Assembly: GCF_964355755.1 (NCBI RefSeq)
Contig: NC_092677.1
Span: 501,001-565,000 of the forward strand
Length of the DNA stretch: 64,000 bases
Direction of reading: 5' to 3'
From: Antedon mediterranea
Taxonomy: Eukaryota; Echinodermata; Crinoidea; Comatulida; Antedonidae
In this document: positions 60 to 61,216 of the stretch, piece by piece
Layout: every line of letters begins with the position of its first letter
Numbering within the stretch: position 1 is the stretch's first letter
The notes under the pieces: model-generated
Databases searched by the model: none
What the model saw: only the letters and a program-made list of their open reading frames with translations
Told to the model about the DNA's origin: nothing
Made by a program: the position numbers and the translations under genes

Positions 60-3000
60 ATGGACATGTTATATTCCAGTTTGTTAATTATGCTTATAGG
101 TAAGTACGACTAATATTATTTAATACATTGTAAGGCGTGGCTATACGTGTATTGCACGATACCATTAGTTTGTGTAGATATTAGGTTTGAATTACGTGTG
201 AATAACCTGTTATTACTGAACTTTGGTCACAGACGCTTCTACATGTTAAACATTGGTCAGCCATTCAAATACACAGTATATTTCTATTACTGACTATGAT
301 GTATACAGTCTATATGAATTTATAATGTTTGTAAGAAATAGATTAAACTAGAGAGTTAATTCATTACATGGCCTATTTGTCACTAGATATGTAGGCATTA
401 AAAGTAATATTTAGTTCATATTCATTAAATATTATCAAACGTAACACTACCGGTAATATAATATGTATTTTCATTATGTTAGTTAATATAGTAGGTAATG
501 ACGAAATAGCGCAATAAAGCACATTATTTCGGTAATCTTACTTTATTTGCATAGGCCCCCTAAAGACAAAGTTCTAATTGGATTGTGGTTCTGTCTCGGT
601 CTTCGTTTCTAGAAACCTTTTCCTCCATCACAATACTAATACACAATACGTTTAATTATTGTGGTTTTGCTATTTGCCTAATTTCAGCTTGATTGCTTTC
701 ATTTTTATACATAGGCTTCCTACACTTGGATAGATATACTATATTTTAATTTCTGTTAATAAGTACTACTGTTTTCTATAGGCCTGACATGCATCACATT
801 TGAATTAAAGATTTTATCACTATATTTTGAATCATGTTTTTTTAACCATAGTCCCTATGGCTGTTGCACTAGAGGTCACAATAAGTGATGTGCAAGGATT
901 TCCCGAGAATTCAGACGCGTTACTAGCTTGCGACTACGCACCAACTAGTGCAACGGGGGTTGATATCTCGTGGACACGAGTTAATGCTCAAAGCGAAATT
1001 ACTAATTTAGTAGTACGAAGTGAAGTGGTTGATGAATTCAAATCACGTATGGAGCTCCAGGTTGCTGATACTTTCCAGGGTAACGCTGGTTTAATAATTC
1101 GTAATGTCACTAAAGAGGATGCTATGTCTTACGTGTGTGCAGTATTCTCTACTAGTGATGGTCAAGAACAAGGAATAACTACTCTACAGATACAATGTAA
1201 GTATTGATCTTTTTGTTTTTCTCTTTCTATCATGCTTGCTACTTAATGGTATCTCTAAAACAGGACATGCTCCCGATTGAAAAAAAAAATCAATTCCTTG
1301 ATCATAACTTTCATAAATTTAAAAGGTCATATTTGACCTATACACTCAGCAAGACGTGCCCGCATATAAAAAAGAAATAACTATTATTTAAATACTTATG
1401 CGATCTACAGATATAATTTACATTGTGTATGGCCTACATAATATCCAAGTCCAAACGAAAAGAAAGAAAGAAACGAAACGTGTAGGACTAATAGACCTTA
1501 GATGAATGCGGATATTTTTCTGAACCCACAGTGTTAGTCTACGTTTTATTGGGGAAGGATTTTGTAGGTACTTAGTACTATAATACAATATTGAATAAAT
1601 GTGAAATGTTAAGAATTCTACTGTTTTTTGTTTTTATTTTAGGGAATTACAAGCCAAAAATTACAAGTGATCCAGCTCCAGATTCTTTGCAAGTTGGTGA
1701 CAACGTAACATTTACGTGTTTATCTGAAGCCAACCCTACATCAGAAATAGCATGGCTAAAGAACAACGTTACCATTGAGATGGATGACAGATTCACAAAG
1801 AACGAGAATGCATCTACTCTTCACATAGATGGTTTAACTCGAGATGATCACGCACTCTTTAGTTGTAGTTCAACAAACCCCGTAAAAGAAATAAGGAGTG
1901 ATCAGATTGAAGTTGATATAGAATGTAAGTAGTATGCCTAATATTGGTAATAGAACACTTGTTTACTTTAATTATAATGATTAAGAAGACATTTAGATCA
2001 TAGGCTGGCCTAAAGTATACATTGTGCTGACCCGCACGGTATAGGCTAATCTACAAAAATATCCAAATGGCTGTAGACTAGTTTTTAAAAAGGCGATTCG
2101 ACTAAATATTGGTAAAAAGATAAATATTTTGGCACAGATGGTATTCCATACGTATATTACTTGCGCTATATAGATAAAACAAATTGTGAATTGGAAACTA
2201 TGAAACGCCGAGTGCCTTCATTGGAAAATAGAAGTTCAGAATTGTTGTTATGATTTATAATAGGTCTAAGTATAATTGTTTTTAATAGATGAGCCAGAGA
2301 TGTATTTAAACCAGACAGGCAACAAAGTTGAATGCACCAGTGAAGCGAATCCAGCAGTGTATCAGTACGAGTTTGAAGTAGACGGTAAAGTAGTGAGGAC
2401 AGACGACGCAGTGTACGAATTGAAAGGAACTGAATGTGTTAATATCACGTGTTTTGGTACTAACAAAATAGGAACAGGCAACGCATCGGATATCGCGTGT
2501 CCTTTGAGTAAGTATTCTGTTACTCATCCAGAAAAGCAAGAAATTTCTACTTACTGACTTTTATAGTTAAATCACCTTTTGACGTCGCTTTAAATTATGA
2601 AACAAAAACAGTACGCTTCTTTCACATATTTTAACATTATTCTATTTGCTTTATTTAACATGAATTTACAATGTGTCTATCTTGGTATAATTCTATACAA
2701 TACTATTGCTTTTTAGTTCATCAATGTTTTTTTTCATTTCAGTTATTCCATCCACACCGCAGCCTAGTACAGGTAAGAATCAACTAAACTGTCATTGGTG
2801 TGTTTAAACGCGTATCTGTACGCGCGCGTATGTTTTAAAATCTGAAATTTAAAACACCCTCTTGTTATATTACGTCTTTATATATTATAATATTACGTCA
2901 TTATAATTTATGATTCATATCTGCATCTATAGGTTTGTCTGGTGGCGCTGTCGCCGGCATTGTTATTGGTGTTCTAGCGTTAGTTGGCGCTGTTGTCGTT

Positions 3001-4534
3001 CTTGTCCTCATCCTCCTCGTATTCCGTAAGTACACAATTCTCTTCCACTAAGTTACTTTTCTAGTGGCCAATCACCCAAAATAAGTCGTTTTAGTATGGT
3101 TTAACTAATTATATACTTATCGAATTCTTATTTTTGTTTTGGAGCAATGAAATTAAAACAGTCGCGCTACTGCAAAATCATCAGCGTATAATTACAGGGT
3201 GGTTATCTGTGGCAAAGAAAACTTTTTTAGTATTTAGTAACCTAACAGACAACCTAAACAAATGAGTAATTCTCGTATTTTTATACGTCGTTATCAGGTA
3301 AAAGTGGAGTGTATGGAGAATCCAAAGATTCAAAATGGTGAGTGTCTAAATTACTATTATCATCATTATTATCATTCCGGTATATATAATATTCAGAATA
3401 TTATAGGTAAATTCTCCCAGTATCTCCAAGTGTACGTATAGGCCTACTATGAAGAACAATACAGAACTATGGTTTGGGGTTAGGGTCAGGATATCAATCC
3501 CAATAAGAGAATGCTTCCAATACTATACTTAAGCCTAAATCGTGGTTTCCACAAGAGACGCACGCAAGCGAGTTGATCAATCACAAGCGACAGTTCGAAT
3601 AATATATCTATCGCTTGTGATTGGTCAAATCATTTACGTTGCGAACCAATCATTATTATTATTGTCACAATTAAACATAAAAAATAAAATCTAATGTAAA
3701 AACAGTTTTTAAAAACAGATTGAAACAAGTTATAAACTTGCAGTGGCCAAGCACATAACATGTTTTGTTTATGTTGTTACAGGAACTATGCAGAAGAAGA
3801 TGAAAAGATGGAGACTAAAAAGAAGGAAGAAAGCAAGCCAGCAACAGGTTCAGGAGGCACAGATACAGGTAGGGACAACTACTTATTGGTTGCTAGGCAC
3901 AGATACAGGTAGGGACAACTACTTATTGGTTGCTAGGCACAGATACAGGTAGGGACAACTACTTATTGGTTGCTAGGCACAGATACAGGTAGGGACAACT
4001 ACTTATTGGTTGCTAGGCACAGATACAGGTAGGGACAACTACTTATTGATTGCTAGGCACAGATACAGGTATGGACAACTACTTATTGGTTGCTAGGCAC
4101 AGATACAGGTAGGGACAACTACTTATTGATTGCTAGTCGATCAATCGACTTGATACATTGATCTATTCATCCGATCAATAATCTTGGTTCCCACTTGGAC
4201 GCAACGCAACGACGTAGGCACAACGCAAGTGAGTTGACCAATCACAAGAAGTTTCAATGATCCACCGCATCGTGATTAGTCAAATTACTTATGGGGCGCG
4301 CCCATGCGTCGTGTGAACAGAGATTTAAGATTAAACCAATACCTTGCGACCGAAATTACCCTGTTAGACCTAAAACTGCAGAACTACAAAGTACTAAAGA
4401 CATGTTTTTTTTTTTTAATGTTAGGTACGGCGTCAGAAAAAAAGGGCAGCAGCGAAGAAGAGAAGGGGAAGGATCACAGGTATGATGAACCACCGACAGA
4501 GGCAAAGGAAGCGAACGAAAAGGATTGGGTGTGA
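60..4534 (+). CDS. Gene A: type I membrane receptor with three Ig domains
   Basis: Nine exons join in frame (410 aa): 60-99, 852-1196, 1643-1924, 2289-2507, 2743-2772, 2933-3025, 3311-3338, 3783-3868, 4425-4534. Residues 1 to about 20 are a hydrophobic signal peptide split by a phase-1 intron. About 20-128 is a V-type Ig domain (Cys in LLACDY, Trp in ISWTR, Cys in SYVCAV). 129-222 is a C2/I-type domain (FTCLSEANP, IAWLK, LFSCSS). 223-295 is a short Cys-rich third domain. A 10-residue stalk exon (PSTPQPST) and a membrane helix (about 310-335, GGAVAGIVIG then a Val/Leu run) follow. The tail is acidic and lysine-rich with Tyr in WNYAEED and HRYDEPP (YxxP). It has no clear ITIM. Many N-glycosylation sequons. 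Exon 7 is the weak point: the better-looking acceptor (3297) breaks the frame, the one at 3310 keeps it. Paralogue of gene B. Ligand unknown. Confidence 0.78.
3541..3655. mobile_element. MITE family 1, copy in gene A intron (ends worn)
   Basis: Imperfect palindrome with the family core: GAGTTGATCAATCACAAGCG on one arm and CGCTTGTGATTGGTCAAATC on the other. It sits in the intron between exons 7 and 8 of gene A. The terminal TTGGTTCCC-type ends are degraded. Confidence 0.75.
3857..4136 (+). repeat. 40-bp tandem repeat, 7 copies, spanning a splice donor of gene A
   Basis: Seven head-to-tail 40-bp units start at 3857, 3897, 3937, 3977, 4017, 4057 and 4097. The first unit begins inside coding exon 8 of gene A and includes its donor (GATACAG then GTAGGG). 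Each later unit repeats a TTGCTAG acceptor-like end, the 12-nt GCACAGATACAG and the donor. Units differ by one or two bases, so the array is young. Confidence 0.95.
4180..4315. mobile_element. MITE family 1, copy in gene A last intron
   Basis: Left end CTTGGTTCCCACTTGGACGC is intact. The core GAGTTGACCAATCACAAG and its reverse GTGATTAGTCAAATTACTTA are present, and the right end is diverged. It lies between the 40-bp repeat array and the last exon of gene A. Confidence 0.75.
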
Positions 4535-4693: not shown

Positions 4694-4968
4694 GTTAGAT
4701 TAATAACTATAATTGTTAGTTTTCCTTTTTAGTTTTGTTAATATTATTAAGTAGTATTTTAGGCCTAGATTTTTACAAATTTTAATGACACATAATTTGT
4801 ACCTGATTTGTATAGATTTAGCATTTGTACATCAATGATAAATTTAATTGTTTTTTAAATCTTGTTAAAAATAAATCGTCTTTATACAAATATTGTGCGT
4901 ATACCTTTTGACAATTGTTCTATAGGACCTACAGGCACATAGGCCGATAAAAAAAACGATTGTAACTT

Positions 4969-10150: not shown

Positions 10151-10190
10151 GCTATGGTAGAAAATTGGCCATTTTTTTGAAAAAATCAAA

Positions 10191-10275
10191 ATCAATACGT
10201 CTATAAGATGCTTATAACGCAATATATGCACATATATAGCAATATTATTGCATAATAACCGTCTTTTAAAAAGTG
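10191..10275 (+). repeat. Right flanking direct repeat of the satellite array
   Basis: Second copy of the 6385-6460 sequence (ATACGTCTATAAGATG, then GCAATATATGCACATATATA), with an insertion before its TTTTAAAAAGTGC end. Confidence 0.8.
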
Positions 10276-11074
10276 CGTAATTTGGCCATTTTTCGAAAAA
10301 ATCCCTCATGTTTAGTGATCCTAATTGTTAATAAGAGTCAATGTACTTCATTCATTTAATGTAATAATCTTGACCTTTGACCGATCGATGAGTATAATAT
10401 TTCTCTACTTTCTTATTATAACAAAGCTCAAGGGATAATGGAACTGGCCACGTATTGTTACTCTTCATGCATGCAGGCCTTTTCAAAGATAACCAATTAC
10501 AGCAAACCCACTTACCTATACAAAAAATAGGACTACTTTATAAATTTAAAATGCTAGGTTTATACAATTAACAATACTGATGGTTAGAAAAACTCTAAAA
10601 TTTTATAAAATATAAGTAAAATGATTCCATTGTTCCCATTTACCAGTAATTTATAACTAAATCATGGGTTTTGTTATGTTTATTTGTATTGTAATATCAT
10701 GTTTTTAATTGACGAAATGAAATGAAATAATTGATATCTCACCAGTCTAAGTCTTTCCGTTGTGTTGGTCGCATATACTTGAAAGCGTTTCCTAAGTAAC
10801 AGAAAACACTCTATTATTTATTTTTATATACATTGGAAAAATTGTATTTCAAAAGTAAATTTATCTCATCGAAATTTAAATTATTTTCAGTACTATAAAA
10901 TATTACAGACAATACAAATTGATCAGAAACAAACTACGTTTATTTTTCGTTTTAATGACGCTTCGCGTGATTACACAGATATTGAATTATTCTGCAGGGC
11001 TCTCCAAAAGACACAAACCGAATGTCTATATTAGTAACGAGCTAATCATTGGATAACAAGAGACCTCCCACGGA
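10276..11074. other. Gene-free spacer, 3' side of gene B
   Basis: No exon recognised. On the + strand 10690-10725 ends in GACGAAATGAAATGAAATAA, like the 3' tail of the LINE type seen at 44.7 kb and 53 kb, so a short LINE tail remnant is likely. An AATAAA on the minus strand (10944-10939) could end gene B transcripts. Confidence 0.45.
10939..10944 (-). terminator. Candidate polyadenylation signal of gene B
   Basis: AATAAA on the minus strand about 130 nt after the proposed stop of gene B. Confidence 0.35.
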
Positions 11075-13532
11075 CTATGCAGTGTACAACCGTCGCATTA
11101 AAGGTTTCAGCAGCGGCAGCAGCGAAAGTCGTAAACTTGCATAGGTCGTCTTAAGCCAATGTAAGCCGTCAAACGATGAACTTTCGGTTTTTACAAGTAA
11201 TGAAGCGTGAAAAGTCAAATTGTTACAAGAAAAAACAAATTTAGAATGGTAAAAAATGTATTGCAATTTTAATAATTACTAATAACAAATAGAAGTTAAA
11301 CAAAAAAGCAAATGACGCTGCGTGGTTGTGCGTGGCAATTGCGCGTACACAATGGGCTTATACAGATTCACAAAACTATTACATACCGTAAGCTCCTTGA
11401 CACACATCCTGCACAATCAAGGTTTATAACAAAAATTACTTACGTTTCTTCAAAATTATAAACCCAGCTATAAGTAAAGAAATTGCAATAACTGAAACTA
11501 CGATTCCAACAACCGCTCCACCACTCAAACCTACAAAGTAAATGAAGTTGAATCATTAATTTTTGTTGTTGTAAAAATTGGCACTTGGTTTACATCTTCA
11601 GGGACGTCATCGTGAAAATTCAATACAATGTTTGTCAAAACTATATTCACATGGTAAAGTATACAGCAAACACAAATACTATGCTGCACACCATACATGA
11701 GTTAGTGGTTTCTACAAACCCACGACATCCTCCTATTGTATTCATATTTAGGGGTAGCATTGGTAAGAACTCTTAGATACTTGTGTGTTTGTGTTTTTTT
11801 AAAAGCCATGGTTCCTACTTGGACGCCACGCAACAACGTAGGTACAACGCAAGTGAGTTAATCAAACGAAAGAATAATCCACCGTGACGTGATTGGTCAA
11901 TTATTACGTCTTTGCGCTGTGTCCAAGCCAAGAGTGACCCAAGTTTAAGTATGCATCTTAATCTCCACCACTGTTATATTCTTACCTTGTTTATGCTCTG
12001 TATCTGTCTTTTGTGCTAAAAATAACAAAATGACAAATAAAATGATTACTATAAGAAAAAGACGATGACAAATGACAAATACAATTATTACTATAAATAG
12101 AAATATATGATTCAATAATATAATTGACTTGAATGAACAGTATGAATTCCATAGTCCTATTGTATATGTGCGTATTACATACCTGACCCACAGACCAGTT
12201 GTGACGTAATCATAGATGAAACTTCGTTTGACGCTTCGCATGTCACGTGCTCGCATGAATCAATGTCCATTTTAACATATGATAACTCCACTTCTTCGTA
12301 CTTCGAACTGTTTGTGTATACAATTATTGTAGCGATTGGAAAAGCGTCTACCTGGCAGAGTAGCGTATTTCCAGTAACTGATAGATTTATAACAGGTGCG
12401 TCTATAATAAAAAGCATAACTTTTAACTTATAAGTCAAATATCTTAAAGCATTAAACATTGATTTTTAAAGGAAACAATGAAGGAAAGAAGAGTAAACAT
12501 AGAATCTAACATTCAAATGATTGCTGAGATCATCTACTATCCACAATAGATGTTTTCAGGAATGAAACTAATCGCCAGACCCGTAGATTACCATAATAAG
12601 TCGCAAGAAAAAGACAGAAATGTACATACGCTTTACTTGCAACAAGAGAGTTTCACTTAGCAACACGCTTGCGTTGTTTCCAGATCTACATCGAATTTCA
12701 CTTCCATGATCTTCTCTAGTTAATGTGTCAATCTTTAGAATAGTATCCTCCATTTTGTAATTACCGCCATCAATTGTCCTGTTATTAACTGACCACGTGA
12801 CAATAGAAATAGGTTGTGAATCTGTTACGCACGTAAGGATGACGCTATTTCCTGTTTGAAGTATTCCAGAAGGCTGCTGAGTAATGTTTGGTACACTATT
12901 CCCTTAAATAAAACAAATATTCTATAATGCACTTTTTGCGTGTCATACAGGCGCTCCATAGTTGTACTAAACATTTACATTTACAATACTTGTTTAAAAA
13001 ATATCTATTTTCTGTGAAGAATTATATTTTCTATTACAGTACTTACATATTATATTTAACCGTGTCGAAGCTTTTGATCCTCGTTTCGTCTTAATGACGA
13101 CTACTTCGCAAACATAAATTCCAGCATCAGATTCTGTGACATTAGCAATGCCTAAACTAGCATCTCCAAACGAATTTGCTGCCAAGAAATAGCCTTCAAT
13201 TTTAGATTCATTCCTCACAATTATGTTAGTTATATCTTGTTTAGATTTTACATAACTCCATGAAATGTCGATGTCGCCATTCACAGTTTCCGGATCATAA
13301 TGGCATTTTAAAATCGTTGGTTTTCCTTTTGTTGCGAGTTGATTTGAAGGTATCTCTACGGTTACATTACTGCAGAACACCAATACTGAAAAAATATAAA
13401 CAATTATTGTCTATAGATAAAAAAGAAAAACCGGACTTAGACGGCAGAAAATACATAGGTTACAGACTTACCATTGCACGAAGTAAAGATTATAACAATC
13501 AAACTTAATATACTTCTACAAACACCTTCCAT
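11075..13532 (-). CDS. Gene B: three-Ig-domain membrane receptor, paralogue of gene A
   Basis: Minus-strand exons: 13532-13472, 13385-13047, 12902-12630, 12401-12183, 12015-11986, 11530-11444, 11408-11387, 11180-11075; 378 aa in frame. Signal peptide (SLIVIIFTSC) split by a phase-1 intron. V-type Ig about 21-133 (LKCHYDP, ISWSYV, GIYVCEV). Second Ig to about 224 (LTCVTD, VTWSVNN, IRCRSGN). Cys-rich third domain to 297, its exon 219 nt as in gene A. 10-residue stalk, membrane helix (GGAVVGIVVSVIAISLL), a 22-nt micro-exon and a tail with TTYASL. The V domain shares the ISW..V.....IN..VR pattern with gene A. The last exon rests on a weak acceptor (CCGAAAG), though no other AG lies in the preceding 85 nt and phase fits; the two tail exons are less sure than the rest. 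Confidence 0.75.
11805..11935. mobile_element. MITE family 1, copy in gene B intron
   Basis: Left end CATGGTTCCTACTTGGACGC, core AAGTGAGTTAATCAAACG and reverse arm GTGATTGGTCAATTATTACG, right end TGTCCAAGCC. It lies between the stalk and membrane exons of gene B. Confidence 0.75.
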
Positions 13533-17770: not shown

Positions 17771-20700
17771 ATGAAATTAAAAATCTTCCTATGCATGTTA
17801 ATAGTAGAAGGTAAGTTCAGTTCATCAATGGCGTATTCCTGTCTAGACTAAAATAGTTTATTTACAGAATGTAACATGTCTAAGAGCCATTATACAGTTT
17901 ATGCCTGTTATGACGTCATATCAAATTTTGATGAACCTAATCATGTTATCAGATTAATGTCAAACGATAAAGCAAAGAAAGAGATGATGAAAACATGCAT
18001 TATGTTTACTTAGTGATTCATTACAAAACATAGCTTAGACAATGTTTGAAGATTGGTTTTCAGTTGGTTTATTTTTAAGATTTTCGCGCCACATAATCAT
18101 TTTAAAACATGAATGATAACAACACAAGTATTAACTTAGCATAGGGTTAAATTGAAAGTTAGACATAGTGAACAAAATGAAAACATTGCACATAAAATAG
18201 AAAAGCCATTAAACTCTATCAGTAATTATAGTATATATAGGCCCAACGTATTATTATTATGTTTATAATATGGGCAAATAATGCATGCAAATGATATATC
18301 TTTGAGAGACACGCCCTTTGGCGATAGTTGTCTTTTGTCTCTCCTCCGTGATCCCTTTTTATGTATCACTAAAAGAAAAGGAATAAATAAATAAACTATA
18401 TAGACTAACTTGCGGAACGAAATTGTGCATTATCAAACTAATTCATAAAATACTTTTGTTGTAAGCTATTATATTTAGCGTGCGATGTCAGACAACACAA
18501 ATATCTGAAGAAGTAATGGTGGAAGTAACAACAAAAGAAGATGTACCAATGGTAGCAAATGTAACACCAAGTCAGTCACCAGCAAACAACACAACTACAG
18601 CAGCACCACCACAAGGTAAAACAGTAACCGTTATCTGCAGGTTATCCTCTTAGTTTCCTTCTTGCTTCCTAAACTTCTCTCTTGATTTCAACCATTACAT
18701 CGAATATTCCTTATTATATATCCCCCTTTTCTTCTCTTCTCTATTTTACTCATTCCTAATTAATTCTTTTTCTTCTCTTTCTTACTCTCCTTTTATCTCA
18801 ACTATTGGGTCTACACAAGTAAATTATTTTCTTTTTTTCTTCTCATTTCCTTGCGTTTTCTTCTCCAACTGCTTTCATTTGTCTTCTTCTGTTTCTTAAT
18901 CACTTTTTTTTCTTTCAACCATTAAACCTTCATCGGCTTTGGGCCTACAGCAGCAACATAAACTATTCCCTTCCTTTCTTTTCTTCTCCTTTCTTCCTTC
19001 TTTAACTCTAAAATTTCATTTGTCTTCGTCTGTTTCTTAATCACTTTCTTTCTCTCAACCATTAAACCTTCATCGACATGGGCCTACAGGAGCAACGTAA
19101 ATACTTAATTTCTTTCTCTTCTTCTCCTTTTTCCTTCTTCTACTCAAACTAATTTCATTTTTCTTCTTCTGTTTCTTAATCACTTTCTTTATCTCAACCA
19201 TTAAACCTTCACCGTCAAATGTATCTCCTCTGTGTTCAAATATCAAATTTTTACAAATTCAATCAATCAAAATTTTGTTTTACTTTTTTCACAGTCAATA
19301 TGACGACTAAAGATTCTGGTGAAAGCAGCGACAGTAAGTTTTATTGTAGCAAAATGGAAATTTTACACTATTCATCTTGAGTGTGTGAATGTACATGTTT
19401 ATAACAACAGTGATATAGCAATGGATCCATTTAACAATAGTTAGCAGGTTTAAGAAAACACTAAACGTGCAGTGTAAAGCTTGGTTCCTACTAGGACGTA
19501 ACGCAATGACGTAAACGCAACGTAAGCAACTTGACCAATGACAACCGACAGTTTGAATAATCCATCGCTTGTGATTGTTCAAATCACTTATGTTGCGTCA
19601 CGTCCTTGCGTTACGTCTCTAGTGGGAACCAAGCTAAAGGAGGCACACGTATATCAACCAACAATAAGAGTAATAAGTGTTATTTATTTATTTATTTTAA
19701 GGTGGTGAGTCAAAGGAGGAGGAAGATGAAGATTCAGGTAATTTCTAAAAAGAGGTATTTGAGGAGATATTAACTTTAAATTATTGGATAAAAGCGATAT
19801 ATTAAACCTGACGAAATTTACCGATATGGGTGTTCTTTGAGGGTGGGTGGGTGGGTGTTAGGCAGATCGCACGAAAGGTACCGATGTGGGTCTTCCTTGA
19901 GGGTGGGCGGGTGGTAGGCAGATCGCAAATCATAATTGGGCGTACAAAACATCTACCGATTGTTTTCCAATTTTTGACGATCAGATTCTAAAGACCTGTA
20001 GGAACCAATTACATCACGTTAATTAATTTTGTGCACTAATTGAGGGGGACATGGGGACGTGTGATTGCGGGGAAATTGGGACGTGTTGCCTCACACTCAC
20101 AGTCGATTCCTTGACACAGAGTTTTGGTGTGTCTGGTCCACCAGGCGCGACGACCTACCGACACAACATGCGTAGTCGTCCAGGTCGTCGCAAAGCTCAT
20201 AAGTCTGTGGTTCTAATTTTAAGACTTAATGTTCTTACAGGTGACTTAAGTGGAGGTGCTATTGCTGGTATCATTATTGGTGTCATTCTAGGCCTTGTTT
20301 TAATTGTCATCATTGTATACGTTATTGTGTCAAAGGTTTGCACTAAAGGTAAGTCATTTACAACAAATAAATGTAATATAATATTCGTTATAGAAGTCTA
20401 ATTAAACCTGAATTATACGCATGGCTGATTTTATATGGAAGAAACATGACTCAACATGAATATGACACGACTATACGAAGCGTTATAAAGTCTATATTAA
20501 TTCGATTCATGCCCATCGATTTATTGATTAAAAACATTGTCATTTTTATGTTTTCAGGTGATGCTCAACCCGCCCCAGCAAAGAAAAGGTAAGTACGCAA
20601 GTCAGATAACTGGTATAATATATCGTAACCTTTGACCGGGGCGTATGTTTCTATTCTATGTAGGCCTATTTCATGGAGAAATAACTTATTTTTCCATGGT

Positions 20701-21018
20701 TGTATAAAAAAGCCTTCCGATGATTACATAGTACTTTCTCGGTAAAATCCTCGTCACATTTTTGCTAGAAACAAAATTGATTGATATAATTCAAATATTA
20801 ACATTAGATAAACACTGCCGGCATAGTTTGAACTTGTAGCTAATACTAGATTGTAACAAAAAAAACAACAATAATATGGACAATAACGTCAAATATAAAC
20901 TATGTATTGTTTATTTTACAGTGAAGTACGATACACTGAAGTCGAAAAGGGGGAACCCGCAGCCGATAAAATCGCAGAAGAAGACAAACCGGCGGCAGAC
21001 GCAGAAGTAAAGGCTTAA
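17771..21018 (+). CDS. Gene C: membrane protein with four-Cys head, mucin-like stalk and ITIM tail
   Basis: Eight exons join in frame (207 aa): 17771-17810, 17868-18003, 18479-18615, 19295-19333, 19702-19737, 20241-20348, 20558-20588, 20922-21018. Signal peptide MKLKIFLCMLIVE. Residues 14-58 form a short domain (Cys in GECNMS, VYACYD, KTCI), with a fourth Cys (VRCQ) in the next exon. Residues 60-129 are a Thr/Pro/Ser stalk that becomes acidic (KEEEDEDS). Membrane helix about 133-157 (GGAIAGIIIGVILGLV). The tail has VRYTEV (20926-20943), which fits the ITIM pattern, then acidic/Ala repeats ending AEVKA. Membrane, micro-exon and tail layout match genes A, B, D and F, but no Ig exon exists. The donor after exon 2 (AT then GTTTAC) is weak; it is the only join found that keeps the frame. 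Confidence 0.65.
18640..19215 (+). repeat. Pyrimidine-rich imperfect tandem repeat in gene C intron
   Basis: About 120-130 bp units repeated three times, each with TTTCTTAATCACTTTCTTT, AACCATTAAACCTTCATCG and GGGCCTACAG-like words. The + strand is almost purely C/T for long runs. It lies between exons 3 and 4 of gene C. Confidence 0.75.
19478..19637. mobile_element. MITE family 1, near-complete copy in gene C intron
   Basis: Ends AGCTTGGTTCCTACTAGGAC and CTCTAGTGGGAACCAAGCT are inverted repeats. The arms hold ACTTGACCAATGACAACCG and CGCTTGTGATTGTTCAAATC. Best-preserved copy of the family here, about 160 bp. No coding capacity. Confidence 0.9.
19811..19927 (+). repeat. ~59-bp tandem duplication, G-rich
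   Basis: Two copies of a segment with ACCGATATGGGTGTTC / ACCGATGTGGGTCTTC, GAGGGTGGGTGGG and GGCAGATCGCA. Intronic in gene C. Confidence 0.75.
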
Positions 21019-25324: not shown

Positions 25325-28300
25325 TTAGACGGTTACAGGCATAGAATTAGCATAGTCATCGTCGTCCGGCCTATCATTATAGTCCTCGCTGCCGTAAGAT
25401 GGTCTGCTATAAGCCCGATCATCAGAGGCATCATAAGGATGATATGCATCCTGCTGTAAAGAACAATTTGTCATGCATGAGTGGCTACATTATGATGAAT
25501 ATTAATGTTATATAATGAATATTCATGAGGTCTATTATATATGTAATCATTGATGTAAATTTTTATAGGTTCATTACCATGCATATTTCAATCAGACAAC
25601 ATTTTAATTCATTATATATTTATGAGTTTCATTAAAATGAACATTCATTCAACATGCTTTATTATTAGATGAACTTGCTCTAACCTGAAAAAGATTTTTT
25701 TGCAAATAAAAATATTATTTGCAGTAATTTTAAACAACTTAATTAATTTTCAAGTAAATTGCAAAACTTGGCTATACAAATGAAAATTTCATTTATTATA
25801 CAAAGCAAAAACAAAACAATTATTTTACAAAAAGAGATGTTAAGAAATATGAAAGCTTTTTGTTATTGTAATAAAAAACCAAAACCATGAAAAAAATAAA
25901 ATCATCAATATACCATAAATTGATCCCACAATGCACCAGTCATTGTCATAGCAACACTACATATTGCAGTTCATGTGCCGTTTTGTTTTAAAATGTGTTA
26001 CATAACTCAGAACAAATTCAAAACAATACTTTTATATGCTGGCAGTCTCTAATATCTATCAGTCTAACCTATAGTAATACACAGGACGGATATCAAGAGA
26101 TTGGTTGGAATGCATAAGTGCCATCCCAAAAAATATCACCATGGAAACAATAGCCAAGCTCAAGATCATTACTTTTCTATCTACCTTTTTTGAAAAAATA
26201 TTAGTAGATTCTTGAAAAAAACTTGAAAATAATAAAAGAACGAAAAGTTACTCTAGTGCAACATTATTGCCGATTATTAAAAGAGAAGACTTCCAAAAAC
26301 CTAAAAATGTGATTATTTAAATACCTAAATTTTCCCAAACTTAGAAGTGGATTCAAACATAACTTAAGAGCAGTGGAAACAAATTAAAAAAACAAAAAGT
26401 ATGTAATATTATTACAAATTACATGTTTACGAATGTACGATGGACGTCCACTGTTGTGTGTTTTATCTGCAGGTCTACGGTAATTCATTCCATAAGGTTT
26501 AACATTAATATAATTTACCTGGTTGCTCTACAAAAATAAACAGTTTTAAACAATATATCAAGACAAAACAGAATTTTATTAGGTTGATTTGGTTCAAAAC
26601 ATGAATAAAATGACACACAAAAATGGAACAATAAGAACAAGACTGAACCAGAATAACCAAAGAAAGTTTTAAAAAATAAAAATGTATTTCCATTTGGGTT
26701 CTTAGAAATGGGATCTAAAGTTCAACTCGACACTAAAACATATTCAATAAGACATCTTAAAATAACATAGCGACAGTATTGCCTGAATCAATAGTAGAAA
26801 GGCTTTTGAAAATCAACCTCTGCATAGTAATCACTGTATTATGGGCATATATAGTTTAAGCATAATGTTGCTTCCAGGCTATAATGTGGATATTTCCTAA
26901 CCATAGACTTGATCCTGCTACCCAATGACTACCTTTATTATTTTTAGAAAGCAAATGAAATAGGTGAACATAAAGCTGCTAGGCCATAGAATGAAACCGC
27001 CACAACATATGTTGGATGTTGACATTAGGTAGGTGAACACAAAGCTGCTAGGACGACGTAACAGAAGAGTACATGATTCAGAAATCAAAGCAAGAATATT
27101 CACTCAAACAATACAAAGGAAATTGAAAGGTAAGTTTGCATAGAATTTTTCTCAAAATCTGAGAGAAAGATTGAATGGAATCATGGAATGGAATCCTAAA
27201 ATGCGATATAATCATGGAATGACCTACCTCAGCATCAGCTGTGGTGGACGGCTTGTCGGAATCAAGAAGCTGAAATGCCATAAAAACAAGTGAAAACACC
27301 ATGACAACACACTATGCTAGTAAAGACAATGAATACTGTCCTCAACATTATGGAGTAACAGATTTGTAGAAACAACACCGCTACCAACGAGGAAAACAAA
27401 GTGTACACTTAATGAAAATAACCAGACACCAACACAGTTGTACACAAGTAGTGTGGGTGAATATTGAATTATTAAGGATAATATTGTAGATTATCTATTC
27501 CAACCATTAACTAGATAGCAAATAACATAGGCCAACATAATGCGGTTAGGTATAACATGAAAAACAAAGCTTTTTCTTTTGGGTGTTGATACAATATAGG
27601 CTAAGCTGGACGGTAGGAAAACTAAGCTATTCCTTATTGGGTGTTGAGATAGGGTAGGTCAAGCTGAGGTCAAGCTGTTAGGTGTAACAGGAAAAACTAA
27701 GCTTGTCCTTATTAAATGGGTGTACTGTTGACAAGGGACAGGCCAACATAACCCTGTATAAAAAACTAAGCTATTTCTTACACCATGTGGTTTAAAATGT
27801 CCTGTACATGAACATCTATTGAGATATACACAGTATACAAAGGGCCTGTACATAAAACAAGACTGATAATTATGAATAAAAATAGTTTGTACGCAGCATG
27901 TAATGATACAATTACAATTAATGGGCGTAGCAACAATGTCAGCTTCAAATTGACGGGCTATAATGCTCTGTCATCACTGCTGGTGAAAATGTGGCATGAT
28001 GACATCACAAAATGATCAATGTTATTACAACTATAAGGAAATAACAATGATGTCACTATGGCACACAAGACAAACAACTCAATGTCATTGTTGTTCTTTT
28101 GTATATGATTAGGCGTTACACATTACTAAATGACATGAGACTTGAATGTGAGCTTAATGTTACACAGCACATCAAAATATATATCAGACATAAACAGCTA
28201 CCTTCGCTGCCTCCTTTGTGCCGTTACTTGGTGGCGCTGTCTTCTTCCCTTGGTTTACACGATTTGGATCTTTTGTGTCCCACGTAACGTCCATATAAGC

Positions 28301-31300: not shown

Positions 31301-34300
31301 AAACAAACATGCTTACTGTACATACTAGGCATGCATGCAATTTATGAATATTTTGAAGCATTATTTTAAAGAACACCATAAAAGTATACGGTATATTATA
31401 TTAAGCATGTAAAGTTAGGCAAGCATAGGCTAGGACTTATTTTACAGTATTATATTGCAGATTAGATAAGCATACATAGGCTAGGACTTATGTTATGTGT
31501 CATAGCATATGTACTGTAAGTAAAAGGTACTGTAGGACTTATTTTACAGTATTATATTGCAGATTAGATAAGCATATATAGGCTACAGTAGGACTTAGGT
31601 ACTGTAAGTAAAAGGTAGGACTTATTTTACTGTAGGTTAGACAACAAGAAGCATAATGGTAACATTTTAAAATTTATTTTATGTATATTTCGTCTTTTTT
31701 TATTAAAAAGTAGTAAACATCTATGGCAGTATATAAGGTTTAATAATTTAAATTAAAATAATTACTGTATTATTAAAAAAATAATTTTACACATCACAAT
31801 GTTCAACAAATAGGTGAGCAAAGTTAATATATTGTCATTTATAAATAAAAACATTTAAGACACAGGCAAACAAACATCATGCAGTATTTCTTACATTTTC
31901 TTGCAAAAACAAGAAAATCTAAGAACAAATAAATGAAAAGAAAAAAGCTGTTCAATGCAAAAAGTACCGTACACGACAAATTTGAGGTAGCAACATTTTG
32001 AGCTACTCCAACAAGCTAGAAATTTAAAATAAATGTTGTGTGCCAAATAATAAAAGTATCGCAAAATTATTAATGTAAATGAATACTTTGAGGACATTTG
32101 CTGAATAATTACCAATTTAGTTGGATTTGAAAATTTAGGTAAATTAATTGGTTTACCTGGTTGTGTTGTGAACGCATTTGTAGTGATCAGGGTTGTGGTC
32201 CGGGCTGCAAAAACAAATTGAACAGCTCTTGGCTATGGTTCTAGTTCAAAGGGCAAGGTTTAAGGGTCAATTGTCCATGGTCATTTAATGTTAATACATT
32301 TTTAAATTTTAACCAAATTAAAAAAAATTCTTGAAAATCTGGGATAACAAACTAAAAAAAAAACAAAACTAGGGATATAGACAAAAAATATCCTTAAAAA
32401 AGAAACCAGGGAAAGATTAATCCTAACTAAAAACAAATAAAATAGTTATGAAATGTACAACCAAAGTTATAAGAGTTAAATCAGTACATCTCACCAACAA
32501 ACAGTCATGCAACAAACTAATAGTCTAAATTAGATGAATGCAAAATGTTGTAGCCTGTGAAAACAACGTCTAAAAAAGTTACAATCTAATGACACAATGT
32601 TATAGCCTGTGAATACAATGTCTAAAAAAGTTACAATGACAACAGGTATAATTTTAGGCAATTGGGTCAACATGTTATAATATATTTAGCTGATTCAAAG
32701 CCTCATTGATCTAATCAATATAGTACAGTAGTTAACTATTAAAGTAAATAACTTAATCTAGACTATAAAATTCATTCAAAATCAACGAATAACCTAGTAC
32801 AGTGTGTAAACTTTCAAAATGTCCTGGACTTGAAATAATCTGAAGTCTTTTGGTCAGACATGAATTGTCTTAATGGATTTTTCCAGAGTAATGATTCTCG
32901 GTGCAGTTCAATGAAATACTTTATTATTGAAATTGTATGTAAATCTATACTTTAAAAAAAATAGTTCAGTGCGTTCATTCTATTTAATATTGCATTCCCT
33001 ACCTAAATTGATACTAATTCTAAATATTGTTCAGGTTACTACAGGTGATATTTATGTCATTGTTTCAATTTATAATCTTTTAGTTGGATTGACAAGTGAA
33101 ACAAGATGCTGATAAATATTATAGTTCAATTGAACTGTATCTCTAGGACTGTAGTCTGAGGGAATAGTTGAATTGAACTGTAGCTCTAGGACTGAAGTCC
33201 GAGAGAATAGTTGAATTGTGTTTGTTAAAGTGCGAATTTAAATGACACCACTTGCTGCATAGCCCCCATCTTTAAGTTGCAAAGTAGCAAGCTAATTTCC
33301 CTGTTAAGCCAATTCTGACCAATCATTGTCTTATGTAGGACAACCTGAGCATTCAACTTACCTACAACAGTGACTTGTACTGAACTCTGTCTTGCTCCCA
33401 CCTCATTACTTGCATTCAACGTCACAGTATACACATCACCAATGGTGTTTGAAGCAACAAATGTGAATGTTTCTGGGTCGCTATCAATGTCAGTTGCTCC
33501 TTGTGATGACCAATCATAGTTAGCAGCAGGTCTGGCCTCTACATCAAAGCTTATCACAACATTTTCTCCTCGGGAAACTTCAATGTCTTCTAGTGCTGTA
33601 ATTTCAGGAGCGACTAAAAAATCATAAAGAGTTGTATTTAATTTAATATTTATTTATAGAAGAGTTGCTTTTCCCTTTGAAATATCTAGGCTTTTAAGAT
33701 AGATGGTTTATGTAGTTTTAAAAATCGATCTGTGAAAGTAAACTATTCCAATTCAAGTATAAGGTAATAATGTCATAATACATAACTTGGCTAGCATTAC
33801 CCATCTCAGTAATAATAGTATTGCATGCAAGCAAATATAATAATAGTTAAAAGGGGACGTACTGTACTTAAGATTTCTCATATTTGGTTAAGATTTATTT
33901 TATTGATTAAACATGCTCTAATACTTACAATACACATCTAGAACCTGACCAGCAGTGGCTTTTGTTCCAGCATCGTTTTCTACCTCACACATATAACTTC
34001 CCTGATCGTTCCGATCCGTGGTGAACGTGTAAGTAGACGATCCTCCTTGCTCTAACACTGATCCATCCTTCTTAAATGTGAACATGCCGTCCGGTTTGGC
34101 AACGACATCACATGACAATGTTACTGGATCACCCTCCTTCACAGGTGTAGTAAAACTTAATACAGGCTCCTCTAAATCTAAGTCAAGAAAAAATGTTTGT
34201 AATATATTGAGCAAAAAAAACTCCCCAAGACAGCAATATTTATAGACAATGTTTCTAAAAATATAAACATTTATAGTTTTTTGGAATTAGTGTACAGTAT

Positions 34301-37300
34301 GCTAAGAAAGAGACATATAATTATATATATATTATTATATTAAGATGCAATAATAAGATATCCATTATTATTTTAATATTCTGAATTCCATAATTGGTAA
34401 TACAATCTACGCTCGCGCTAACCGCTCGCCAATTCGCCAATGGCGACTGGAGTCTCCATTTGGCGAAAATAATTATTGCTTTGTTCGCCAAATTGCCAAG
34501 CCTAGGCCTAGCCTGGTCGGCGTGACTTCTTATGGGAGCGAGAATTCGCCACACTTCGGTACTTTCTGACTCGGGTACACTTTTTACCACCACAGCATTT
34601 TATGTGACGACGACGTCACGATCGCTGTGTTCATTTTTTAAGTTCTGTTTAAACATGCGCAGAGCGTGCCTCGATGACGTTTTAATGACACACAGTTGTT
34701 AATGTGATTGGTTCGTGGCCGGCCGTCGTCGACGTGATGATGAGCGAATAAAAGGGGAAGTCCCTATTCTTCGACGTAGAAAATGAACTTCGAGAAGAAA
34801 ATGTAAACAGAAACATGTGGACGAATACTTCCGTAAACGAGGCTGTTCTGTTATTTAAAAAGGGGAATTTTAAATTTAACAAAGTAATTACCTCAATAGT
34901 ATAACGTTAACATGTTTAATTTTATTTCCCTTTCGATTATTCTAACCGAAAGTTGCGCTTTAAATTGAATAGTTAAGAAACAGCGTATACTGCAACGGCA
35001 ACCCTGGCCAAAGCGCGTTTTGGCCGCCTACATAGAATGGGTTACGGCCGCTGCATAGCAATTTCAAAGCTTCTTAAATTTCTGCGGTACATTTCTTGTT
35101 TTATATATAAATAGATTGATAAGTATTCCACTTATTAAATAATTTAATAAATCGGTAAAATTGACGTTTCGAAGCAAATATTCCATGATGAGAGGCGACC
35201 TTTTTCGACATGCCTCGTGTGCGACGAAGACTAGTTCAGAAAATGGAACAGTCCACTGCGGGGGTTATCCAATCATTAATTAACGCGCTAAATACATGCA
35301 TACCATGCACATTTCCTGGGCGACGGTAATTTAGTAATAAGCGGAGAACTGAATCCCCCCTAAGGAAAATGGTAAACACTGATATTTATGGTAGGGATTA
35401 TTTTTTTTAGGGGTTGGTCTTGTTGGCCTCTTCGCACGAGGTCCACGCAAAGTCAAATAAAACGATGTGTTTTATCAAACAGAAATATAAATTAGCTTCA
35501 ATTCAATACTAAATTAGCCAGATTTTGATAATGAGAAAGACTCAAAAATTGACTTTTGAGGCGGATGTACATAATAATAATAACCGATTTACATATCAAA
35601 ATAAAGAGTATTTAAAGCCTGATAACATGCAACAAAAATTACTCCATCACCTATTATGGACCTCGTGCGATCGGGTGAATATATAAAAATAATCCCTTAA
35701 ACAAGTTCTTTCCAGGCATATAATTTTTATTCTCATGGGTACATAAGAAATAGTATATTTTTAACTTCAAAGACACGTCACTTTTTGAAATTTCACGAAC
35801 GTGTTAAAATCGCGGTAACGAAAATCAGGTTCATTGGGATACCTAATAATAATATAAATGTAAAAGAAATAAAATTAAGATGAACTTACATATAACATTC
35901 AGAGTAACTACAGCAGTGTCAATTGGAGGATTATCCGAATTATCAACCTCACATTCATAATCACCACTGTAACTACGTAAAGTGTTAGCAATCACAAGAA
36001 GTCTGTCATCATTTGGATCAAGAGTAAAGATAGTACTGTAGGCAGGCTGCACTGTTTTAGATAAACCCACAATAGTTGTTGCTATAGGTTCAGATGCCCC
36101 ATTAGTGACATTACTCCATCTTATAATAATAGCGCTACCACTCATAGGATCGTATTTACATATCATTCTCGTTTCAGAGCCTTCAACCACATCCCCCAAG
36201 CTGTCAATAGTTACAGTCACACCAGTACATGTACTGAATAAAACTAGGAGAAAATTATTAATTATTTAATTTATTAAATTTATATTAAAATGGTGAGCAT
36301 ACAGTAATGTATCATTACATAAAGATCAAACGTGTCACCATCTAAATCAATCAAAGATTCTGGTATTAAAGTGGGCAGTTCTTCTCTTGTCATTTTTTTT
36401 ATGGAAACTGGCGCAACAAAAGATTTCCTTAATATTATTAAATACTGTAAATATTCTGACAAAAGTTGTTGATATTGTCATCAACACTTCCAAATTGGAC
36501 ATGAATTGGGATAGACTAAAACAATTAAGATTTTTAGAATACACAGTAGGGTTGGTAAGCAATTTCAAATTATCTAACTAAAAAATTAATTAAAAACTAG
36601 ATTTGAACTCGTCACTACGGACGAGTTAGGTTATCCGCAGCCCAAAAGCCACGTGCACGTCACACGTTAGAATATTACGCACAGAAAAACGATTATGCTA
36701 TTGAAGAAAATGTTAGTGCGCTCTCTATTTTGCGTCACGTCAAAGTATATACAGTATACACTATATACTGTATAAGTACTACATACAGTTCAGAATAGGT
36801 GAAAATAAGTGACCAAAGTTAATGACACTTTTGACCATGATGACGTCATCACAATTTTAAAAATGGTAAATCATGTGAAAGATAATTGATTGACCTAGAC
36901 AATATAAAGAAATGGTGGAAAATGGAATACGGATAAGTACTGTAGATGCGCTCTATTAAATGTGATGCGCTATGACGAAAGAGACAAAAATCCTATATTT
37001 TATATTTGAGTGGCCATACGATGACGTCACAATGTCCGGTTAGCCATATTGATTCATGATTCGATATCTACAACTTATCACCTTCCAGAATCTGTAATTT
37101 CAAAAAAGTTCACCACGTAGTTTAGAATCTCTGACAGTTTAAAAAAAGGCATACTTTTCACGAAATTTTGAACTTTTTCATCAAAAACGCTCGCAAATTT
37201 TTTAATTCTATGTGCTCGTATGACGTGATTTTAAGTCGAAATTGTTTGAAAGTTGGTAAATTTACTAAAAAAGACAGGAAAAACAAAAATCAAGCAAAAA

Positions 37301-54900: not shown

Positions 54901-57900
54901 AATTTCTCTTCCAAGTATACTTAGTACTAGTAGTCGAGTCGCCGTAAACCATAGCTATACAATCTGCACAGGACATTCCTCGACCAATGTTCTGGTGGTA
55001 TAACACGTCTTCTCGGATAAGGACTTAAAGCTGGAGGTTCAGTGTACACATCTGGCTCATGTGCGCTTTAAAGAACGTAGTAGAACTTTCAGAAAGTAGG
55101 GGGTCACCCTGGAATACTGGTCCATTGAGTTCCTGTCGTTGTGGACATACAAATGGGCGCAGCACCCGACACAAAGGGACCCTTTTAGGGGAGAAGAAAG
55201 TTGTGGTATGTGCAATTCAACCCAGTAGGCTGCAATTCACAGACTATTTTCATTTACATCCTTACAAGGTCTGCAAGGAAGATAAACAACAGTCTGTATA
55301 CTGTACTTACATCAACTTGGGCTGGTCGCTCAGGTTTCTTCGTTTTCTTGTCCATTTCAACTTTAGCATACAGATCACCAGGTGCTTCAGATTCAACTGG
55401 TTTCTTTTTCTTTAAGTTGACCTCTGTGTATAGGTCACCACCTTTTGCTTCATATCTAACTAACGGTGTCTTTCCTTCTTCCATTTCAATGGCAGGTTCA
55501 CCATCTGATTTGTTCTTTTTTCTGGAGAGAATAATAATAATAATTATTATCGGACTGATATCATTAGAATTGTTTGTCCCACAGTTTATTTTTAAATGCT
55601 AATTGCAAATGATTTTTAAATATACCGCAATTCATTTTTAGGTGCAGCATTCGTTTTTATTTGTATTTTCCCTATAGTAAAAAGAGCCAAAACATCTGTG
55701 CTCTGTGGACGCAATCCTATTATTAAACAAAAGTGGCCTTTCTTGATGAAATTGTAGAAAACTAAATGTATCAAACTAAGATAAGTGTGTAAACTCACAA
55801 ACTTTTTTCATTCTTGTTGCCTGTAAAAAATAAACAGTTTTTGATAATAAATGTGATCAAATAAGAAAATTATAATAACTAGAGGGTATAAAATATTCAA
55901 AAATGAATGAAGTTGAAACTGGTAACAATGATGATAATGACTATAATATAGAATAATATTCTATATTAATAATACAACATATTATGTTGTATTATTGATA
56001 ATTACAAAAAAAAGATGTAAATTTGAAAGGTTTGAAATTAAATAATTTAGATGATTTATTATATAATTTAAGATCATTAGCAGAAAACAAAACGAATTGG
56101 ATTTAGTTTGATTGATAAATGTTTTGTTGTAGAATGATATTTACCATTAGTTACTGTGAACGTGGCATGGTGTTTAAAAACTTGTTCACTGGTTGTCATT
56201 TCACAGAGATAGTACCCATCATCATCCTCTTTCACATTAGGTATCTTGAGAGAACCATCATCAGCAACTGACCATCTAGAATTAACATCTCCCGAACGAA
56301 CTAGGAAATTCCCTCTCACACCATTTTTATCAGATTTATACCAATCAAAGTGTTGCACTTTCTCTCCATTTGGAGGGGTGAATTCAACTTGCAAACAACC
56401 GTTAGTAGAAACATCTGCCATACTTGGCAAAACTTTCATTCTTATTAGCCAAATGAAAGATAACATGACATTTTTAATGTATGGGTTAAAAAAAATTCTT
56501 TTAACGATAGAAATTAAACCACATTTATTGTGCTTTTCTATTTGTAATAACTTTTTTATAGTTTATGGCAAAACTATAGAGCTTCCTAAACACACATAAA
56601 AATATTTGAAATAAAATGCATTGAAGAAAGATTATAGATGTTCAAACAGTATTACAGGTAGTAGTAAAATAGAAAGGATAAATTAGAATTAAAAATATTA
56701 ATTTCATAGACTTTTAGGTTATGCAACCCTTCACCTAACATATGAATACAAGAGGCAATATTTTTAAAAAATGCATGCAAATAGCTAAAAAATGCAAAAA
56801 TGAGAAACTATGCCAAAATGCATAAATATTTTTTATATCCATCTTAATATTATGCGTATGTGATTGATTTATGTCAATTACAGTATTTTTTAAAACAAAG
56901 GAAAATATTTGAACACTCACCTACAAGGCTTTTCAGGTTTGTTATTTTTCAAATCTGATGAAAAAAAATTGTTAGTGCTCTGTAAAACTTGGAAAATTTA
57001 CATTTTAGTCATATATACAGACTATGGCTTCAGCTTTTTCTATAACATTGTTGGGCAGGAAAATTTGTAGATTAATTTTATCCTTAGTTACTAGAGGTTC
57101 AAGGTCTTGAATGAACCATGTGAGGGCAGCAGGCCATTTGACAATAAGTGGCCTACATTTTGGTTTTGCTTTAACTTGTGCCTTAAAAATGAAATCCATA
57201 AAATAAAGACAAACTGATGAGAAGTGGTCTTTATACTGTTGCTGTTAATAATTTACAGTATTGACATAATATCTACTTATGTATGCTAATTGCTTAATTA
57301 TTAATTAGCAATTGTTTTGACATTTTATTTACAGCATACTGCATGCATATGTTATTTTATACAGTATTTTCATTTCAACTAGTTTTGTAATCTTATTTAC
57401 AAAATGTTTATCATTCACTTACATATTACAATTCCCACTATAATGAACAAGGCAGCAGCACCAGCAACTCCTCCTGCAATGGCTGCAGTGTTAACTGTAT
57501 CTTCATCTGTAACTACTGAGAAGGATGAAAATAACAAAACTGTGTAAAGCTATAAAAAGTCTACTGGGATGAATCACTGTATTATTCTTGGTTGAAAATC
57601 ATGATCAAATTTTCAAATATAAATAATACTTGTCTATACTTTTTTATTATTAGGTATTACGTATTTGCTGAAGTAGCATTATGGATTCAACTTTTTATTT
57701 CTATGGCTGCTATAGGCACAGAATACATTTGTTTCTGTAACATCAGTGGCTTAACATTTATCAGTGGGATAGCTTATGGTCTGATTACTATTCAAACGCA
57801 CCAATTACGAAAGTAATTTCCAGTGATCTGAGATCCATATTCCCACCATTTTAGGCCGTGAAAAAAACACTTTTGGAACGCTGTTTAAACAGAGCTACTG

Positions 57901-60900: not shown

Positions 60901-61216
60901 AAGAAACCAAATATACAGTATTTTAAAGCTATTTAAATAAATATTGACTTTGGCTATAGAAATTTGTATACTGTATTCAATGAAATTATAGAACACATCG
61001 ATTTCTAATGATTTGAATAGGAAAATTCTTAAATTCATTAATTTTATTGATTATAAAATAAGATAGGAGAAGGGACAAGCTCGGCCTAACATCAAGCGAC
61101 TGGTGAATGCAAAAGCATTGATGTGCTCATTATTGTGATATTTGCCTATTGTAAATGTAATGTTAGCTGCAATTTAGATGACATCTTACCTGGGTCTTGT
61201 GTAGTAGGTGGTGTTT
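51987..61216 (-). CDS. Gene F (5'-partial): membrane receptor with ITIM and ITSM tail
   Basis: Minus-strand exons: 61216-61190, 59100-59041, 57515-57423, 56954-56921, 56440-56145 (an Ig domain, see its own entry), 55820-55799, 55521-55311, 52127-51987. Stalk: TPPTTQDP and a Thr-rich exon (LTTKTTTTKNETEK). Membrane helix AAIAGGVAGAAALFIIVGIV. Two alternative-looking juxtamembrane micro-exons (34 and 22 nt), either of which keeps the frame alone. The tail repeats a D-L-Y motif (GDLYTEVNL, GDLYAKVEM) between Lys-rich linkers. The last exon has LQYADL, which fits the ITIM (52103-52086), and TTYASI, which fits the ITSM (52022-52005), 27 residues apart, then TGA. No extracellular Ig exon is seen upstream to the window end, so signal peptide and ectodomain must lie beyond 64000. 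By its tail this is an inhibitory-type receptor. Confidence 0.7.
52925..53060 (+). mobile_element. LINE 3'-end remnant
   Basis: GTCGAGTGGAGACCCACTTG near the start and GAGACGAAATAAATGAAATG at the end resemble the 3' UTR and tail of the LINE type at 44.7 kb (GAAAT-type tail). No coding part remains. Confidence 0.5.
53219..53362 (+). CDS. Unassigned 47-codon open frame in gene F intron
   Basis: ATG at 53219 after an A-run, to TAG at 53362. It begins MATNKAKVTSAEDKQQLM and continues NYGKKLGKKN, rather protein-like for intronic sequence. I recognise no family. The upstream A-rich run and lack of introns would fit a small retrocopy or part of a LINE. Confidence 0.2.
   Translation: MATNKAKVTSAEDKQQLMRNYGKKLGKKNVLQCHPARVVVCVDKKLS
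54927..55055 (-). CDS. Candidate alternative last exon of gene F
   Basis: From a phase-0 acceptor (CACATGAG) the minus strand reads 43 codons to TAG: PDVYTEPPALSPYPRRR, then IPPEHWSRN and ending GLRRLDY. D-V-Y-T-E matches the D-L-Y-T-E repeat of the preceding tail exon, and phase fits that exon (55311, phase 0). It would replace the ITIM/ITSM end. The acceptor lacks a good pyrimidine tract. A different, overlapping open frame runs upstream of it (about 55220-55035). Confidence 0.35.
   Translation of the reverse strand, partial: PDVYTEPPALSPYPRRRVIPPEHWSRNVLCRLYSYGLRRLDY
56145..56440 (-). CDS. Ig-domain exon lying after the membrane exon of gene F
   Basis: A 296-nt exon (phase 2 to 1) encodes a V-like Ig domain: Cys in NGCLQVEF, Trp in FDWYKSD, LKIPNVKEDDDGYYLCEM. 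It sits between the membrane exon (57423) and the tail (55521). Acceptor and donor phases fit its neighbours, so inclusion with both micro-exons (352 nt) keeps the frame and would put an Ig domain on the cytoplasmic side. An upstream in-frame ATG (56466, MLSFIWLIRMK) could instead give a separate protein start, though it makes a poor signal peptide. Confidence 0.55.

Follow-up and report, generated by a model that had tools for sequence, protein, structure and literature searches.

Receptor complexes that combine variable Ig heads with tails of the ITIM or ITAM type are known in vertebrates and at the allorecognition loci of two colonial invertebrates. In Botryllus schlosseri, the FcoR genes of the fuhc locus encode clustered type I IgSF receptors with V and C2 Ig domains, and tails that carry an ITIM, a hemITAM or a YxxI/L/V core (PMC12065747). 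The Alr complex of Hydractinia comprises 41 IgSF members with ITIM/ITAM-type tails (PMC12065747, PMC11999971). In the oyster, a single receptor, CgIgIT2, has five Ig domains and an ITAM of its own (PMC11999971). The literature searched, which lacks most subscription journals, yielded no description of a crinoid complex of this kind.

The window analyzed here is a stretch of 64,000 nucleotides of the crinoid Antedon mediterranea (C8:501001-565000, C8 being the window's chromosome), taken from an assembly of 354 Mb in 18 contigs, about 11 of them large. The initial annotation, which had taken the host for an invertebrate (it is an echinoderm), described in this window a cluster of five membrane receptor genes, A, B, C, D and F. 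The window does contain clustered IgSF membrane receptors whose tails carry tyrosine motifs, and the cluster extends far beyond what was first seen. Of 150 V-set exons scored genome-wide, 46 lie at C8 0.38-1.70 Mb, where 0.56 would be expected, and a second concentration of 40 is found at C8 4.7-6.2 Mb. The end of the window is separated by 57 kb from the start of a head-to-tail array, about 1 Mb long, of at least 60 V-domain type I receptors, all in one orientation. A DNA pattern for TYQDLQ gave 68 matches in the genome (3 for the reversed pattern, used as a control), among which 60 fall at C8:621702-1609284, all on the plus strand; these 60 array tails are pattern matches from which a sample was read, and not 60 full gene models. 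A search for ESAYVNVK placed 12 of its 13 matches (11 exact, one near) in the same interval. Paralog gene models, numbered L002 and upwards, were computed from splice sites on a single haplotype. Those of the first cluster are compact, often 3 to 5 kb, with a V exon, at least one further Ig exon, a TM exon and tail exons. We conclude that the window is probably the proximal flank of a lineage-specific IgSF complex, extending over C8 ~0.38-1.66 Mb and containing receptors of both activating and inhibitory type.

The exons of the window genes are listed in Table 1. Gene A (plus strand, 60-4534) is a clean open frame of nine exons with consensus splice sites, encoding 414 amino acids, and its product also matches the Pfam Ig_3 profile (4.8e-22). 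Gene B (minus strand, 13532-10743) is 33% identical to A and follows its layout down to the first tail exon, all joins between ectodomain exons being in phase 1; the rest of its tail was looked for in the window and not found. Both are clean type I receptors with V, I and C2 Ig domains. In C, D and F, the membrane and tail exons are real. The differences between heads first proposed stand for A and B (three Ig domains) and for D (four Ig-like domains, the exon of the second being about 45% identical to paralogs L002-L004), but not for C and F: in the window, a search established no head for C beyond the candidate signal-like and Thr-rich exons, and found none for F. An isolated V-set exon close to F was rejected as its head, because it lies downstream of the F TM exon, in a phase-2 intron, and cannot join.

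Table 1. Exons of the five receptor genes, in window coordinates
Gene	Feature	Position	Strand	Evidence or remark
A	Exon 1, signal peptide, MDMLYSSLLIMLI..., ends in phase 1	60..99	+	GTAAGT donor, in frame with exon 2
A	Exon 2, V-set domain, phase 1-1	852..1196	+	Pfam V-set 4.9e-14; model pLDDT 83
A	Exon 3, I-set Ig domain, phase 1-1	1643..1924	+	Ig_3 and I-set matches
A	Exon 4, C2-like Ig domain, phase 1-1	2289..2507	+	In frame; 96% amino acid identity to L005
A	Exon 5, short stalk, phase 1-1	2743..2772	+	In-frame splice
A	Exon 6, TM, GLSGGAVAGIVIG..., phase 1-1, no charged residue	2933..3025	+	Hydropathy 3.17
A	Tail exons 3298-3337 (1-2), 3783-3868 (2-1), 4425-4534 (stop)	3298..4534	+	YGES, YAEE, YDEP; no ITIM
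B	Ectodomain: signal 13532-13472, V-set 13385-13047, Ig 12902-12630, Ig 12401-12183	12183..13532	-	V-set 8.3e-14, Ig_3 1.7e-15
B	Stalk 12015-11986, TM 11530-11444 (1-1), tail exon 10791-10743 (1-2; KYMRP)	10743..12015	-	Rest of tail not found
C	Possible signal exon 17774-17810, Thr-rich exon near 18485-18615	17774..18615	+	Candidates from sequence reading
C	TM 20241-20348 (1-1), tail exons 20558-20588 (1-2), 20922-21018 (stop)	20241..21018	+	Strict ITIM VRYTEV; TM of the same type as A
D	Ig exons 1-3: 36243-35890 (V-set), 34177-33929, 33613-33362 (PKD/Ig-like, no Cys pair)	33362..36243	-	Pfam
D	Ig exon 4 29559-29290, TM 29178-29064 (phase 1 in, 2 out)	29064..29559	-	TM phases differ from A, B, C and F
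D	Tail exons 28313-28202 (SAYMDV), 27269-27228, 26527 to stop (VNYINV)	26400..28313	-	Two strict ITIMs
F	TM ~57519-57423 (1-1), tail exons ~56954-56921 (1-2), 55521-55311 (2-0)	55311..57519	-	DLYTEV, DLYAKV
	Isolated V-set exon in F tail intron	56145..56414	-	Pfam V-set 6.9e-8

The single exon blueprint claimed for all five genes is kept by A, B, C and F, in which a TM exon of phases 1-1 is followed by a first tail exon of phases 1-2; D departs from it, its TM exon ending in phase 2 and its tail exons running 2-0 and 0-0. Ig exons of phase 1-1 are common in animals and do not by themselves set these genes apart; in the window, exons that are long, have phases 1-1 and show good splice sites almost always encode Ig domains. 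When the TM and tail of A were used as a protein query against the genome, essentially A alone was matched, and a degenerate TM pattern matched, across the whole genome, A, B, C and one site on C2. The TM type of A, B and C is therefore rare. Two kinds of repeated sequence were also noted in the window. Minisatellites of 40 bp and a 285-bp tandem repeat occupy 3815-4176, 4884-5408 and 6473-10192, and the second tail exon of A extends into the first minisatellite. A reverse transcriptase-like fragment (LDSLPARFFKDGA...YRPVSILSAVSKIVERI), the remnant of a LINE, lies on the minus strand at 45840-46334.

Tail motifs were scored with a strict ITIM consensus, [SIVL]xYxx[IVL] (PMC8631942). ITIM or ITSM matches had been announced for four of the five genes (C, D, F and probably B); under this definition three strict ITIMs remain, all of them in C and D; A has none, as first stated, and neither does the incomplete tail of B. 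The distance between the two ITIM tyrosines of D is 51 residues, which falls to 37 when the phase 0-0 exon is left out. Both motifs of F are YxxV cores, the aspartate at -2 placing them outside the consensus, and TVYRLL, considered as an ITSM of F, was rejected because it lies beyond the GTAAGT donor of its exon. Three or more strict ITIM/ITSM matches in five tails are rarely obtained with shuffled tails (P = 0.0024), a value to be read with the caveat that the motif itself drew attention to some of the tail exons. Independent support for the tail motifs comes from the paralogous array. The reading of the window as a self-contained cluster of five inhibitory receptors could invoke the strict ITIMs of C and D and the presence of an SHP-2 gene in the genome. 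We nevertheless hold it to be very improbable: the five genes form the margin of a group of at least 60 relatives with ITAM-spaced tails, three of them have no strict ITIM, and the tail phases of D differ.

The dominant tail of the array is near-constant and can be written YQDLQ-x8/9-YVNV, x counting the residues between the two four-residue motifs. Under heads of different kinds the tails are still homologous (TYMDY...NQTYQDLQHKEEESAYVNVK, AYMTYTGETDKETNHTYQDLQKKDDNQAVYVNVK, and shorter forms in L005 and L007), and these heads comprise three V subfamilies plus at least two further types. In the 16 tails compared, the key tyrosines are 11 to 14 residues apart, nearly all in the arrangement YxxL-x8..10-YxxV. 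The strict ITIM consensus is present in 10 of these 16, and the second half of the tail is mostly also a YxN (Grb2-type) site. The spacing fits an ITAM, but the array tails do not conform to the strict definition (YxxI/L-x6-12-YxxI/L), their last position being V rather than I or L; the only strict ITAM found was in L031, a gene of the second cluster. In PD-1, BTLA and, similarly, many others, SHP-1/2 bind by their tandem SH2 domains to an ITIM and an ITSM whose tyrosines lie about 25 residues from each other (PMC8631942). With its shorter spacing, the array tail suits the tandem SH2 domains of a Syk-type kinase better than those of SHP-2. Calling these tails 'inhibitory-type', as was first done, is too narrow for the complex, since the spacing of its main tail is ITAM-like. 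None of the eight TM segments checked contains a charged residue; nothing therefore suggests that these receptors couple to an adaptor.

Tails and heads of the array evolve under different constraints. Among array paralogs, omega was 0.57 to 0.65 for V exons and 0.16 for tails. For tails recovered through the TM exon, without a motif filter (n = 12), omega was 0.25 (0.10-0.57), compared to 0.65 (0.50-0.88) for the largest V set, the two intervals overlapping slightly in this unfiltered comparison. All 12 of the tails recovered through the TM exon alone keep every tyrosine. Two further TM exons had no tail under the unfiltered rule; a full tail lies farther downstream of one, and the farther-downstream tail of the other is devoid of the first tyrosine. 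This sampling led us to reject ascertainment bias as the source of tail conservation. Recent duplication alone was rejected as well, because synonymous divergence in the tails (0.16 to 0.19) is close to that of the V exons (0.18 to 0.35) in two of the three V sets: the tails are constrained and not merely young. We conclude that the array tails are under purifying selection (omega 0.16-0.25), and the V domains less so. Since V-domain omega is below 1 on average, these values do not demonstrate positive selection.

Heads and tails have been exchanged between receptors, as the comparison of A with L005, a gene about 205 kb away at C8:707 kb, makes clear. The three Ig exons (852-2507 in A, 650-2285 in L005) are 93 to 98% identical at the nucleotide level, with dS of 0.045 to 0.13. 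The TM and tail exons differ, and the tail of L005 contains SAYEIV; the joining of head to tail in L005 is predicted from splice sites. These two genes have what characterizes paired receptors, similar ectodomains and different signalling parts, and the resemblance to paired-receptor clusters initially proposed is borne out. Matches between A and L005 stop 4 to 17 bases beyond the exon ends, and the introns between the Ig exons match barely or no better than shuffled sequence. By comparison, one intron is 93% identical between L005 and L007. The identity between A and L005 would be most simply explained by gene conversion confined to exons, for which cDNA may have been the intermediate. A more ambitious reading is that crinoids evolved a vertebrate-like system of activating and inhibitory V-domain receptors on one chromosome, with a near-constant tail and heads swapped by such exon-limited conversion, perhaps by way of cDNA. 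It is a speculative reading, to which we attach a low probability; if true, it would be a germline-diversifying recognition system outside vertebrates.

The V domains match the IgSF V-set profile and keep the canonical Cys pair, the Trp and the DxGxYxC motif. AlphaFold models were obtained for the V domain of A and for one of the array (pLDDT 86). In Foldseek searches, both models fell near antibody light chains, PD-1, PD-L1, SIRPalpha, butyrophilin and Dpr, and that of A matched V domains, PD-L1, BTN3A1 and SIRPalpha. Such a fold could also belong to a family acting in cell adhesion or tissue patterning, like Dpr/DIP, nectins or JAMs, in which V heads would interact with one another or with partner heads, and YxxL/V motifs would serve AP-2 endocytosis or Grb2 docking rather than immune signalling. 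Dpr10 was the first match of the array V domain, with nectin, SynCAM and NCAM also matching; YxxL/V is also an endocytosis signal, YQDL and YVNV fit YxxPhi sites, and YVNV is a classical Grb2-type site. As PD-1, SIRPalpha and butyrophilin match too, the fold cannot separate immune from adhesion families. On the other side, sixty tandem copies with interchangeable heads would be unusual for adhesion families, and the two tyrosines keep their spacing in every one of the 16 tails. We consider an adhesion family unlikely.

Candidate signalling partners are encoded in the genome. An SHP-2 ortholog lies at C3:14.10 Mb, with 57 to 80% identity and its exons in order, and a Syk/ZAP-70-type gene at C6:536.8-546.7 kb comprises, in order, two SH2 regions and the kinase exons. 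From what is known of such motifs and partners, the conserved tyrosines may mediate activating or inhibitory signalling. Once a ligand is bound by the V head, the tail would be phosphorylated by Src-type kinases; where YxxL and YxxV tyrosines are paired at ITAM spacing, they would then recruit a Syk-type kinase, for activation, and single ITIM or YxN sites would recruit SHP-2 or Grb2, for restraint or adaptor signalling. Receptors like A, which share the head but lack these motifs, would act as modulators. On this view the genes of the flank are relatives with changed tails, which have strict ITIMs in C and D, YxxV cores in F and neither in A. The output could be defence or self/non-self discrimination.

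An immune or allorecognition role is suggested by analogy with Botryllus FcoR, Hydractinia Alr and vertebrate clusters. As described, both invertebrate systems resemble the crinoid complex, FcoR in its clustered type I IgSF receptors with tyrosine-motif tails, and Alr in its multi-gene IgSF composition with ITIM/ITAM-type tails. The differences are that FcoR has a sushi domain and is paired with fester genes, whereas no sushi domain was seen in the crinoid complex, which has one orientation and a near-constant, ITAM-spaced tail; and that the V-set and I-set domains of Alr are described as unique (PMC11999971), whereas the crinoid V domains are canonical. The crinoid locus might itself be an allorecognition complex like Alr or fuhc, in which polymorphic heads would recognize self and set a balance between ITIM and ITAM-like signals. 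The genomic style is the same, one region with many IgSF genes, ITIM and activating-type motifs, and exchange of heads and tails, but crinoids are solitary, and this role seems quite improbable. With the vertebrate paired clusters (the LRC with KIR/LILR, CEACAM, SIRP), the complex shares near-identical heads on different tails, tandem arrays and an SHP-type phosphatase; in contrast to vertebrate paired receptors, the TM segments checked have no charged residue and the motifs are in the receptor's own tail. The oyster CgIgIT2 is likewise an invertebrate Ig receptor with its own ITAM, but a single one and not a large array. Crinoids are considered the sister class of the remaining echinoderms. 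So large a complex in a solitary member of this phylum would bear on whether such systems descend from an early animal ancestor or arose more than once. A defined locus, its tails and its partner enzymes (SHP-2 and the Syk-type kinase) make this question testable.

Other Ig genes were noted elsewhere in the genome. A small related locus at C7:15693-15709 kb (L040, L041) has the same type of V domain, membrane segment and tail (TYQDLQHTVQESAYENVK). In the second cluster of C8, L031 (5798000-5807000) is a five-Ig receptor with the strict ITAM YQELKVSALPAIYKEL and SIYENI in its tail. On the minus strand at C8:5120500-5128500 (L032), at least 14 near-identical V-type exons with weak donor sites occur within 8 kb, about 0.5 to 1.1 kb apart, in a pattern that reaches to about 5142 kb; they may be either a variable-exon array or a tandem expansion within one gene. 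Intronless genes for V-set membrane proteins of about 430 to 660 residues, grouped in families and with a kirre/nephrin-like layout, were seen at C11:15.90 Mb (L011), C3:18.75 Mb (L013) and more sites on C7. Dispersed single-exon frames of about 1350 residues with Ig domains occur, as several near-equal copies, at C9:22.13 Mb (L012) and on C1, C5, C6 and C10. A COX1 search showed that the assembly has no mitochondrial contig, and a search for GH6, as a test for a tunicate, gave no match, a weak result since the control matched nowhere either. Two markers point to a crinoid, and on their basis a cnidarian or tunicate origin was rejected. The genome contains two tandem hairpins of miR-2012, a marker of echinoderms and hemichordates (Rfam family match, E = 1.7e-6, below the curated threshold). 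Finally, it encodes, with its amidation Gly, the exact L-type SALMFamide peptide GLRFHKGAPF that is present in all three crinoids studied (PMC9793003).
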